Shown here: positions 21,546 to 34,209 of the stretch, one piece after another
Numbering within the stretch: the stretch's first letter is position 1
Layout of the letters: each line of letters opens with the position of its first letter
Origin: Klebsiella pneumoniae
GTDB lineage: Bacteria > Pseudomonadota > Gammaproteobacteria > Pseudomonadales > CAMAPQ01
Length of the DNA: 34,209 nt
Direction: 5' to 3'
Assembly (NCBI GenBank): GCA_945860125.1
Contig: CAMAPQ010000025.1
Location: 1 to 34,209 of the forward strand
The notes under the pieces: model-generated
Database searches by the model: none
Seen by the model: the letters and a program-made list of their open reading frames with translations, nothing else
Told to the model about the DNA's origin: nothing
Made by a program: the position numbers and the translations under genes

Positions 21546-21648
21546 TAGGACTTACGCAAAACTGCCCAGCTTTGTTGTCGCGCTTCGTCGTACGATTTGT
21601 ACTGTCTTCATCGCGACGCCTTGCCGGAACAATTTTGCGTAAGTCCTA
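21546..21648. mobile_element. 103-base MITE-like element with 16-bp terminal inverted repeats
   Basis: TAGGACTTACGCAAAA at 21546-21561 is exactly reverse-complemented at 21633-21648. The direct repeat TCTTT flanks both sides (21541-21545 and 21649-21653), as expected for a 5-base target duplication; a TA duplication is also possible because the repeats begin with TA. The 71-base interior has no coding capacity and holds a smaller inverted repeat (TGTCGCG/CGCGACG-type arms). It would need a transposase supplied elsewhere. I do not name its family. A solitary 15-base match lies at 26474-26488. Confidence 0.85.
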
Positions 21649-21902: not shown

Positions 21903-23390
21903 ATGTGGACAGCAGTCAAGGCGCTATTAATCGATGATGATATTAATCGTCGGCATGATTTAAAAATCATTCTTGATTTTGTCGGTGAAGAAACAGTTGT
22001 TTCTCATAGTTCTGCTTGGCGTGAGAAAGTTTCTGTCGCGGGTAGTAAAGAAGAAGATTTTTCATGTGTGATCTTAGGCGATGCAGCGCCCTCTTTGGCT
22101 AGTATGGTGAAGTCTATTTTTGATTGGAATAGTGAAATTCCAATTGTTTTGCTTGATCCGCGCGTAGAAGAGGATGAAAAATTAGAAGAAGAGCTGAAGA
22201 AAATCATTATAGCGCGTATTACTTTTCCGCCAAACTATACAAAACTAATGGATACGCTCCATCGCGCTCAGGTATATACAGAACATATGCGCTCTGTGCA
22301 GGGTGGAAAAGTATATAAAAGAGATCCTCAATTGTTTCGAAGTTTAGTGGGAACAAGTCGTGCCATTGCGAAGGTAAAAGAATTAATGGCTCAGGTTGCA
22401 GATAAGGATGTCAATGTATTAATAACCGGAGAGTCTGGAACAGGTAAAGAAGTGATTGCGCGCAATCTACATTATAATTCGCATCGCAGGCATAAGCCGT
22501 TTGTGCCTGTAAATTGCGGGGCAATTCCTGCAGAACTATTAGAGAGTGAATTATTTGGGCATGAAAAGGGCTCTTTTACGGGTGCTATTTCAAGTAGGCC
22601 TGGTCGTTTTGAAATGGCGCAAGGCGGCACTTTATTTTTAGATGAAATTGGCGACATGCCGCTTCATATGCAAGTGAAAATCTTAAGAGTACTACAGGAG
22701 CGTACTTTTGAACGTGTGGGTGGAACAAAAACATATCATGCTGATGTGCGCATTATCGCTGCAACTCATCGCAACCTTGAGAAAGCAATTAAAGATAATC
22801 ACTTTAGAGAAGATTTGTTTTATCGTCTAAATGTATTTCCTCTTGAGATGCCGCCTTTGCGTGAAAGAGCTGAAGATATTCCTCTGTTACTCAATGAATT
22901 AATTTCTCGAATTGAAAATGAAAAGAGGGGATCCTTAAGATTTAACTCTGCCTCAATAATGGCTATATGTAGATATGATTGGCCTGGTAATGTAAGGGAG
23001 TTAGCAAATCTGGTTGAGCGCCTCGTTATTACCCATCCTTATGGTGTTATAGGTGTTAGTGATTTGCCTAAAAAGTTTAGGCATGTTGATCTTGTTGATG
23101 AAGCAGAGCAAGCATTTATAGATACTGTCGAGGCAGGTGGTAGTAGCCCATCAAAGTCTTTTGAAGCAAAAGAACTAACCATTATTTCAAATGATACTGG
23201 GTTGTTGCCAGTTAATGGGCTTGATTTAAAAGAGTACTTAAATATGTTGGAATATAATTTTATCAAGCAGGCATTAGATGATGCAAATGGTGTTGTGGCG
23301 CGTGCTGCAGAACGTCTCAAAGTAAGAAGAACAACCCTTGTTGAAAAAATGAGAAAGTATGACTTGCTAACAAATAAGAGAGAGGCATAA
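21903..23390 (+). CDS. fleQ: Sigma-54 activator FleQ, flagellar/biofilm master regulator
   Basis: FleQ activates flagellar genes with sigma-54 and, in Pseudomonas, switches exopolysaccharide genes in response to c-di-GMP. The 495-residue protein matches FleQ throughout. A degenerate receiver-like domain (1-135, opening ALLIDDDINRRHDL) is followed by the AAA+ domain: Walker A GESGTGKE (176-183), Walker B GGTLFLDEIG (241-250). The Fis-type DNA-binding end is GVVARAAERLKVRRTTLVEKMRKY. Residues reported to bind c-di-GMP in P. aeruginosa FleQ appear kept: LFRS (144-147), R187-N188 and E332. The sigma-54 contact loop reads GSFTGA (223-228) instead of GAFTGA. The stop is only 12 bases from that of the convergent GGDEF-EAL gene. 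Confidence 0.95.
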   Translation: MWTAVKALLIDDDINRRHDLKIILDFVGEETVVSHSSAWREKVSVAGSKEEDFSCVILGDAAPSLASMVKSIFDWNSEIPIVLLDPRVEEDEKLEEELKKIIIARITFPPNYTKLMDTLHRAQVYTEHMRSVQGGKVYKRDPQLFRSLVGTSRAIAKVKELMAQVADKDVNVLITGESGTGKEVIARNLHYNSHRRHKPFVPVNCGAIPAELLESELFGHEKGSFTGAISSRPGRFEMAQGGTLFLDEIGDMPLHMQVKILRVLQERTFERVGGTKTYHADVRIIAATHRNLEKAIKDNHFREDLFYRLNVFPLEMPPLRERAEDIPLLLNELISRIENEKRGSLRFNSASIMAICRYDWPGNVRELANLVERLVITHPYGVIGVSDLPKKFRHVDLVDEAEQAFIDTVEAGGSSPSKSFEAKELTIISNDTGLLPVNGLDLKEYLNMLEYNFIKQALDDANGVVARAAERLKVRRTTLVEKMRKYDLLTNKREA

Positions 23391-25585: not shown

Positions 25586-25606
25586 TTTTTAATTTTTCGT
25601 TTTATT

Positions 25607-25653
25607 CTGAGCTTGTCGAAGGATAGACATTAAGAACCCTTCGACAGGCTCAG
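25607..25653. repeat. REP-like palindrome
   Basis: CTGAGCTTGTCGAAGG (25607-25622) pairs with CCTTCGACAGGCTCAG (25638-25653) with one G-T pair and a 15-base loop; the right side continues GGCGAACGG. This is a widely dispersed REP-type motif of proteobacterial genomes. Here it lies between the convergent peroxiredoxin and rnt genes and may also act as a transcription end. A smaller palindrome (CGCTCA-GGA-TGAGCG) follows near 25710-25725. Confidence 0.85.
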
Positions 25654-25745
25654 GGCGAACGGGGAAACTAAAAGTAAAACATAGTAGCCTTATAAGGGGC
25701 CTGACCTTTTACGCTCAGGATGAGCGCGGCAATTCCTGTTAGCGA

Positions 25746-26351
25746 CTAATCAATAGGCCAGCCACCGAGATGCTGCCATCTGTTCACAATATAACAAAAT
25801 AGCTCCGCTGTTTTTTGTGCATCATACAATGCGGTGTGTGCTGTTGAGCTATCAAAACTAATATTGGCAATTTCACATGCTTTAGCAAGCACTGTGTGGC
25901 CACAGGCGAGCGCGCTGAGCGTTACGGTATCCAGGCATGAAAAAGGATGAAGTGGGTTACGTTTCACTTTTTGTCTTTCTGCTGCTGCAAAAATAAATTG
26001 ATGGTCAAAAAAAGCATTATGTCCCACTAAAACGGCGCGGCTACAATCATGCTCTTTCATCGATTCTCGCACTTCTTTAAATAAAGTGGTAATCACAACG
26101 TCTTCTTTAAAGCTAGTTCGGTTGGGATCTTTTGGATTAATTTTATTCACATTAAGGGAGGCGGCATGCAGATTTAAACCTGGCTCTGCTGTTACAGGCA
26201 AAGAGAGCGTTCTCTCTTTTACAATCTGGCCATTATGATCGGTTGTCAGAAAAATAACGCCGACATCAAGTAGGGCGTCTTCGGTAGGATTAAAGCCACC
26301 GGTTTCAACGTCTATTACTACAGGGTAAAAGCCGCGAAATCTTTTTGACAT
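25746..26351 (-). CDS. rnt: Ribonuclease T
   Basis: RNase T is the DEDDh-type 3'-5' exoribonuclease that trims tRNA and 5S and 23S rRNA ends. From the ATG at 26351 the protein has 201 residues and opens RFRGFYPVVIDVETGGF with catalytic D14 and E16. VGHNAFFDHQF supplies the next aspartate and STAHTALYDAQKTAELF the histidine and last aspartate; it ends NRWQHLGGWPID as RNase T does. A TTG at 26378 would add nine residues; neither start has a good ribosome site. Divergent from motY. pyrC, which lies between them in Pseudomonas, is missing. Confidence 0.95.
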   Translation of the reverse strand: MSKRFRGFYPVVIDVETGGFNPTEDALLDVGVIFLTTDHNGQIVKERTLSLPVTAEPGLNLHAASLNVNKINPKDPNRTSFKEDVVITTLFKEVRESMKEHDCSRAVLVGHNAFFDHQFIFAAAERQKVKRNPLHPFSCLDTVTLSALACGHTVLAKACEIANISFDSSTAHTALYDAQKTAELFCYIVNRWQHLGGWPID

Positions 26352-26379
26352 GGTTTGTTTGGATGAAGGGTGTGACAAG

Positions 26380-26470
26380 TTGTATTAATATCCTTCTTTT
26401 GTTTTTCGCTGGCATATGTTTTGTATTAACAATTTATAATTGATCACTTGTATTAATCATTTGTATTAAT
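26380..26470. repeat. Four direct copies of TTGTATTAA(T/C) between rnt and motY
   Basis: TTGTATTAAT or TTGTATTAAC occurs at 26380-26389, 26421-26430, 26448-26457 and 26461-26470, all in the same orientation, with start-to-start distances of 41, 27 and 13. The cluster fills the divergent promoter region of rnt and motY. It may be a regulator binding array or the relic of small duplications. Confidence 0.75.
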
Positions 26471-26473
26471 ACA

Positions 26474-26488
26474 TAGGACTTACGCAAA
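26474..26488. mobile_element. Solitary copy of the MITE terminal repeat
   Basis: TAGGACTTACGCAAA matches 15 of 16 bases of the terminal repeat of the element at 21546-21648. No inverted partner is nearby. It ends one base before the apparent motY start at 26490, so an element or its footprint appears to have reshaped the motY 5' end. Confidence 0.7.
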
Positions 26489-26489
26489 T

Positions 26490-27611
26490 ATGAATATAGA
26501 TAACATGCATCCTACTATTTTTAGGGCTTCCAAATATAGCAAACCTCGTGCTAATGCGGCGATTTTTTTCCGCTTCTTTTTTGTCAGACTTTTCCGATTT
26601 TTCGGATTTTCCAGAGTAGCCGTATGTTTTTTATGGTCACTCTTTTTTTTCGTATCACCTCTTTATGCGCACCCTTTCGATGAACATCCTTTTGTCGCTA
26701 AAATAGATGTATCCCGTTGGCAGGCAGATGGTAATCCTTTTGAATGCAAGTTATGGCAAAACGTACCTAATTTTGGTCAGGCCCTCTTTAAGGCGCGTGC
26801 TGGTGAAAATCTGCGTTTTTATTTGGTGAGTGAGCGCCGCTTCACGCAGTCCGGCGTTGGGAAATTAGATTTATCCTCGCCAGATTGGCGTTACGATGAG
26901 CCTGAAAGTTCTTTAGGTAATATTTCGGTTGAAAAAGGGCTAAAACCAGTTGTGCTCAGTGCAGATTTGGCCTCGCATTTTATTACTGCATTGCAGCATG
27001 GCCAATTCCCAAGGTTTACTTTGCCTGGTTGGTATAAAAATGAACAAATAGTTGTTGAAGTGTCTGCCGTTAATTTCCCTCAGGGTTACAAAGAATATAT
27101 AAAGTGTCTCACTGAGCTACTGCCTGCAAATTTTCAGCAGATGGAGCACTCTCTTGTTTTATTTGATACGGATAAAACAGAAATTAAGCCTGAGTTTGAA
27201 GAAAGATTAGAGTGGGTTTGGCAGTATATGAAAGCTGATCCGCTCGTGCTCGTGCGTGTGAATGGTCATACTGATGATATGGGTAAAAATTTATATAACT
27301 GGCATTTATCACGTCGGCGAGCTGAATCAATTAAGGATTATTTAGTATTGCATGGTGTTGAGGCTGAAAGAATTACCACGGATTATTTTGGGGAGTCTAA
27401 ACCTGCTGCGAGTAATCGTAATCAAAAGGGGCGATATAAAAATAGAAGAACTTTAATGCGTCTTGAAAAAGTAAAAGCAAAAGAAGATTTTGCCCGTATT
27501 CAAGATGAAATTGCCAAGGCAAGGAAAATTGAAGTGCCTGAAGAGCTTAAAGGCTTTTTAAAAAAAGCACCGCTAGAAAAAGAAAAAATTCCTATTGAAA
27601 CAGCGCAATAA
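26490..27611 (+). CDS. motY: Flagellar motor protein MotY (OmpA-family)
   Basis: MotY is the T-ring component around the basal body of polar, often sodium-driven, flagella that holds stator units. The 373-residue product has a MotY-type N-terminal domain (NPFECKLWQNVPNFGQALFK, HGQFPRFTLPGWYKNEQIVVEVSAVNF, YIKCLTELLPANFQQMEHS). A C-terminal OmpA-like peptidoglycan-binding domain follows (about 230-345: VLFDTDKTEIKPEF, VNGHTDDMGKNLYNWHLSRRRAESIKDYL, ENRR-equivalent KNRRTLMRLEK). The signal peptide is near residues 40-60, ending SPLYA. The residues before it are oddly long and Phe-rich (IFFRFFFVRLFRFFGF), and no ribosome site is visible, so the true start is uncertain (ATG 26490 or 26505). argG follows, as in Pseudomonas. 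Confidence 0.87.
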   Translation: MNIDNMHPTIFRASKYSKPRANAAIFFRFFFVRLFRFFGFSRVAVCFLWSLFFFVSPLYAHPFDEHPFVAKIDVSRWQADGNPFECKLWQNVPNFGQALFKARAGENLRFYLVSERRFTQSGVGKLDLSSPDWRYDEPESSLGNISVEKGLKPVVLSADLASHFITALQHGQFPRFTLPGWYKNEQIVVEVSAVNFPQGYKEYIKCLTELLPANFQQMEHSLVLFDTDKTEIKPEFEERLEWVWQYMKADPLVLVRVNGHTDDMGKNLYNWHLSRRRAESIKDYLVLHGVEAERITTDYFGESKPAASNRNQKGRYKNRRTLMRLEKVKAKEDFARIQDEIAKARKIEVPEELKGFLKKAPLEKEKIPIETAQ

Positions 27612-33978: not shown

Positions 33979-33981
33979 AGT

Positions 33982-34126
33982 ATCCGTCATTCCCGCGAAG
34001 GCGGGAATCCAGAAAAAAATTCAATATTTGATTCAGCCATTGGATATATAAAGTAAAAAAATACATTAAATCCACCTAACTTTTAAGACTAAAGACTGGA
34101 TTCCCGCCTTCGCGGGAATGACGGAT
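33982..34126. mobile_element. 145-base MITE-like unit with perfect 31-bp inverted ends
   Basis: The 31 bases at 33982-34012 (starting ATCCGTCATTCCCGCG) are the exact reverse complement of 34096-34126. Each arm is itself palindromic (CCCGCGAAGGCGGG). The 83-base interior is AT-rich and non-coding. The arm sequence is a well-known dispersed repeat in proteobacteria. A partial extra copy, GCGGGAATCCAG, lies at 34169-34180. No gene is present from 33906 to the window end at 34209. Confidence 0.85.
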
Positions 34127-34209
34127 GCTGGCTCATTTTCGTCGAATTTATTTTATGTTATCGCTTATGCGGGAATCCAGTTTCTTGGGATTTTATTTTT
34201 TAATTTTTT

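Follow-up and report, generated by a model that had tools for sequence, protein, structure and literature searches.

Two comparisons with relatives support a new 5' end for the flagellar motor gene motY in the genome analyzed here. Its N-terminus is longer than that of any of the 63 relatives in which the gene could be anchored, and the sigma-28 (FliA)-type box that 47 of 62 relatives carry before motY is gone. A preliminary description of this DNA had proposed that motY gained a new 5' end through an insertion or deletion; the new end stands on these two points, whereas the cause is one that we infer. The candidate is a MITE, an element about 103 bp long with a strongly palindromic sequence, one end of which lies directly before the motY start codon. 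The MITE as cause is plausible, and the fuller proposal, that the 5' end was rebuilt in this lineage by MITE insertion and deletion, has in our judgment an even chance of being correct. The underlying observation on the motY start region is confirmed, and the parts that make up the region are of known kinds.

The window, by which we mean the whole stretch of DNA that was analyzed, is 34,209 nucleotides long and constitutes all of contig 25 of a 2.58-Mb genome (125 contigs, 96.8% complete). Its motY gene is placed between rnt and argG and is assigned to the family by a MotY_N domain (Pfam, 3.5e-38) followed by an OmpA-like domain (1.6e-21). The start of rnt was set at ATG 26351, as the rnt alignments of relatives begin at residue 1. 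The relevant features are as follows:

21546-21648, + strand: complete 103-bp copy of the MITE, listed for comparison
21903-23390: FleQ-like gene (Pfam)
25746-26351, - strand: rnt (RNase T; Pfam RNase_T), the divergent neighbor of motY
26380-26388, + strand: outlying copy of TTGTATTAA, exact match
26410-26425, + strand: weak sigma-54-like site TGGCATATGTTTTGTA, with GT, not GC, at -12; recognized post hoc
26420-26470, + strand: decayed 13-bp tandem repeat, unit TTTGTATTAATCA (Tandem Repeats Finder), containing the TTGTATTAA copies at 26421, 26448, and 26461
26462-26473, no strand assigned: 12-bp palindrome TGTATTAATACA, present at two exact places in the genome
26474-26488, + strand: lone MITE end TAGGACTTACGCAAA, 15 bases identical to the MITE end, with AGGA at 26475-26478
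26490-27611, + strand: motY, 373 amino acids; MotY_N at residues 68-212 and OmpA at residues 224-319 (Pfam)
26490-26618, + strand: motY N-terminal extension, residues 1-43, counted from ATG 26490; the next ATG is at 26505
26619-26654, + strand: hydrophobic core of the signal peptide, AVCFLWSLFFFV, residues 44-55

Two other repeats were seen in the window: an inverted repeat, GAGCTTGTCGAAGG / CCTTCGACAGGCTC, at 25605-25665 between a peroxiredoxin gene and rnt, and palindromic repeats with CCCGCGAAGGCGGGAATCCAG at 33979-34181, close to the contig end. An Rfam search of the entire window returned zero matches.

The 55 comparison genomes belong to the same order as the window's genome but to other families. 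A search of species genomes with ArgG gave 80 loci, mainly from Pseudomonas and other gammaproteobacteria, at 71-77% identity (best 77%); none of these was a close relative, and the search of species genomes found no close relative of MotY either. The motY relatives used here are distant (about 26-42% identical) and non-independent, many being Pseudomonas and three (L044, L045, and L096) sharing the same N-terminal translation.

Starts were compared by their distance from an anchor, the residue aligned to MotY position 77. All 63 relatives have an ATG, GTG, or TTG 26-50 codons before this residue; in the window, starts are available 76 and 71 codons before it and none is closer than 71. Measured from the start nearest the hydrophobic core, the stretch preceding the core spans 0-19 residues in the 63 relatives versus 43 or 38 here, and when starts up to 60 codons from the anchor are allowed, the relatives still reach at most 32. 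Compared with its relatives, motY here has its first usable start some 20-40 codons more distant from the signal-peptide core, and the window's gene departs from the MotY signal peptide with a short pre-core stretch. The preliminary description had drawn attention to an unusually long, Phe-rich N-terminus before the signal peptide, and both properties hold. It had also stated that a new 5' end would be refuted if distant relatives shared this N-terminus and this upstream sequence; the alignment with relatives came out in favor of the claim. Within the Phe-rich part of motY, TTTTCCGAT is repeated 2.3 times at 26590-26610.

The long N-terminus would be an artefact if the real start lay downstream, at a conventional length, and the MITE end were neutral leader DNA. 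We consider this unlikely. It is nevertheless a live rival, because the annotated frame shows no sign of coding across 26556-26630 (-0.45 bits per codon), a result that also counts against a rebuilt 5' end. Translation could then begin at the rare codon ATT (residue 25), from which the pre-core stretch would be 19 residues and within the range of the relatives, none of which has as long a stretch as the annotated one. Alternatively, it could begin at the out-of-frame ATG 26554, with slippage (or an assembly error) in the T7 run at 26563-26569. Neither route is preceded by a visible Shine-Dalgarno-like sequence. Moreover, 26490-26555 does carry a coding signal in the annotated frame; it is weak (0.10 bits per codon over these first 66 bases), but only 1.07% of off-frame gene pieces equal it. 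The sigma-28 box is absent whichever start holds. The earlier statement that motY has no ribosome site is half right: the MITE end contains AGGA, a possible site 11 nt ahead of ATG 26490, and of 20 further starts of the window that were checked, 15 also have no Shine-Dalgarno-like tetramer. A start entered at 2126, whose coordinate was wrong, is not counted among the 20. Since only 5 of those 20 have one, the lack of a strong Shine-Dalgarno sequence at motY says little.

Promoters were sought with generally known sigma-28 and sigma-54 consensus sequences. Within the 225 bases upstream of motY, a sigma-28 box scoring at least 17 was counted in 47 of 62 relatives (L039 was dropped for having too little upstream sequence), compared with 1 of 62 in the reversed-sequence control. 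For four Marinomonas-like loci (L054, L094, L107, and L133), the box that entered the count is some 210 bases upstream, within rnt or close to it, and could be a chance match; excluding these four gives 43 of 58. The motY of the window reaches 12.5, and the best score in 26000-26700 is 13.5, equal to the median of random 340-bp stretches of the window. FliA is present in the genome above the curated cut-off, and a sigma-28-like TAAAGAAA-N12-GTCGATAA lies upstream of flagellin. Because both are still there, the box was most likely lost at motY itself. Such a loss is not unique or special to this site. Scores fall below 17 in 15 of the 62 relatives, and this, together with the remoteness of the relatives, weighs against a rebuilt 5' end. 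Genome-wide, the exact sigma-28 pattern was found in one place only, inside a gene, and the pattern with one mismatch, at 112 places versus 70 for the reversed pattern, was too loose to use. A scan for sigma-70 promoters found none, with 1.6 expected by chance.

The predicted sigma-54-like site at 26410-26425 may replace the lost promoter. A score as high was seen in 0.3% of random stretches, for a site that was picked out after the fact, and its core reads GG-N10-GT in place of GG-N10-GC. Elsewhere in the genome, a canonical sigma-54 site lies upstream of a flgB-like gene. Two relatives (L042 and L111) have no strong sigma-28 box, yet they have sigma-54-like sites before motY, and these predicted sites hint at repeated promoter swaps at this gene.

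The single MITE end one base before the motY ATG, as first described, was confirmed by identity at 26474-26488; one T follows, and then ATG 26490. The sequence CATAGGACTTACGCA matches at 26472-26486 with zero mismatches. A 13-mer from the MITE end, TAGGACTTACGCA, occurs at 176 places in the genome (91 + 85), often paired about 90 bp apart, and the reversed 13-mer has zero matches there; 42 matches to the MITE body were reported. The motY site bears the terminal sequence of a multi-copy element, as a single end with neither a body nor an inverted partner. Reduction to one end is an established, if uncommon, fate of this MITE in this genome. Among 100 places listed of the 176, 32 unpaired ends were read. 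Almost only the MITE end is kept in L024 and L158, about five others (L004, L007, L027, L164, and L165) break off after roughly 20-50 bases, L013 is a short form with an internal deletion, and the remainder appear to be full-length copies in which point changes affect the opposite end. Bodiless ends such as L024 and L158 favor a rebuilt 5' end. No MITE body was found hidden in the motY coding extension, as alignments of the body with 26490-26700 scored only at the level of shuffles; this counts against a rebuilt 5' end and makes the MITE as cause an inference.

L013 and L025, at about position 1501, are much shortened by internal deletion, to about 40 bases that retain the two ends. At L207 (same genome, contig 10, about 48249-48351), a full MITE precedes the sigma-28-like box of flagellin by about 40 bases, making this a second flagellar promoter in the genome that the MITE adjoins. 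A literature search gave no relevant-looking title on MITE insertions in flagellar promoters.

Upstream of the MITE end, the four TTGTATTAA repeats described beside the motY start were found as exact matches at 26380, 26421, 26448, and 26461, all on the + strand. The genome has 65 copies in total (42 forward, 23 reverse), and the search for further clusters that had been proposed identified the motY cluster as the only one in 2.58 Mb; no other site has two copies 2-30 bases apart. When the 138-bp spacer (26352-26489) was shuffled with dinucleotides preserved, some 9-mer reached four copies in 28 of 20,000 shuffles. Tandem Repeats Finder describes 26420-26470, which is AT-rich, as a repeat of 13-bp period (3.8 copies, 74% matches, score 58). 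We read the array as a local, decayed tandem repeat, for which an operator role is possible with support confined to this spot. An operator array proper, in which a regulator would bind TGTATTAATACA-like sites and control rnt and/or motY, seems improbable to us. A cluster of four exact copies within 90 bases, seen nowhere else in the genome, would suit it, as would the inclusion of the last copy in the perfect palindrome TGTATTAATACA. However, the one further exact copy of the palindrome in the genome lies inside an open frame and so offers no second target, and three of the copies are explained as a tandem repeat. The 15 direct rnt-motY spacers of relatives contain no exact copy of TTGTATTAA and one single-mismatch match; the same site was found neither at other promoters nor in these relatives. 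A literature search for GGACTTACGCA led to a paper on Vibrio parahaemolyticus VmeL.

The absence of pyrC from this spot had been offered as a further argument for an altered 5' end. The absence is real, but the argument does not follow, because the same rnt-motY junction is seen in 15 of the 56 relatives in which both genes are readable; pyrC lies between them in the other 41. Loss of pyrC as the mark of a local deletion was therefore rejected. Judged by these junctions, both arrangements are ordinary, and the absence of pyrC here does not point to a recent deletion. Dimeric PyrC was also searched for in the genome and gave no match; having no positive control, this search proves little.

In the rebuilding that we propose, a TA in the spacer between rnt and motY would have received a MITE. 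A deletion running from within the element to the motY leader would then have removed the MITE body and the old promoter, joining the MITE end to leader DNA that would now be read as protein. Transcription of motY would start from another promoter, either the weak sigma-54-like site or an unrecognized one, and the AGGA of the MITE end may help ribosome binding. The signal peptide should still direct export, and MotY should still reach the flagellar T ring. The MITE's part in this is plausible only, because nothing ties its end in time to either change. The MITE end, the N-terminal extension, and the promoter loss may be unrelated events, the relatives, all from other families, giving no order for them. 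Coincidence would then suffice: drift in the spacer, a 13-bp repeat born by slippage beside a decayed MITE end, and a sigma-28 box lost to point mutation, with the MITE uninvolved. We hold this to be possible but somewhat doubtful. Coincidence would accommodate the abundance of MITE ends in the genome, the truncated ends at other places, the weak or absent sigma-28 boxes of some relatives, and the lack of a MITE body at motY. It fits less well with a MITE end that sits directly between the repeat array and the ATG, and with an unusual extension that begins where the MITE end lies. Very improbable, in our view, is outright co-option, in which AGGA would be the ribosome site for the new ATG, the leader would have become an N-terminal addition of 20-40 residues, and motY would have exchanged a FliA promoter for a sigma-54 promoter with a -12 element derived from the local 13-bp repeat.

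The site matters as a flagellar motor gene without the promoter kept by most of its order and with transposon debris at the joint. If confirmed, a rebuilt 5' end would illustrate how a stator-ring gene can drop out of the FliA regulon and keep its product. For now the case is a local curiosity that makes one clear prediction: motY should be independent of FliA here.

Compared with the genome's own MITE, about 103 bp long (full copy at 21546-21648), the motY site shares 15 bases of the terminal repeat and has one end only, with no body or second end found. A study of Shewanella oneidensis reports, from sequence analysis, a sigma-28 site upstream of motY (PMC3120886). The window's gene is orthologous to this sigma-28 type of motY, also represented by the 47 relatives, by its domains and its rnt-argG placement; it differs in having no sigma-28-like box and a longer N-terminus. 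In Vibrio cholerae, motY is described as a sigma-54 class III gene (PMC6504787). The window's motY resembles it in having a sigma-54-like site upstream, and differs in that the predicted site has GT instead of GC at -12.
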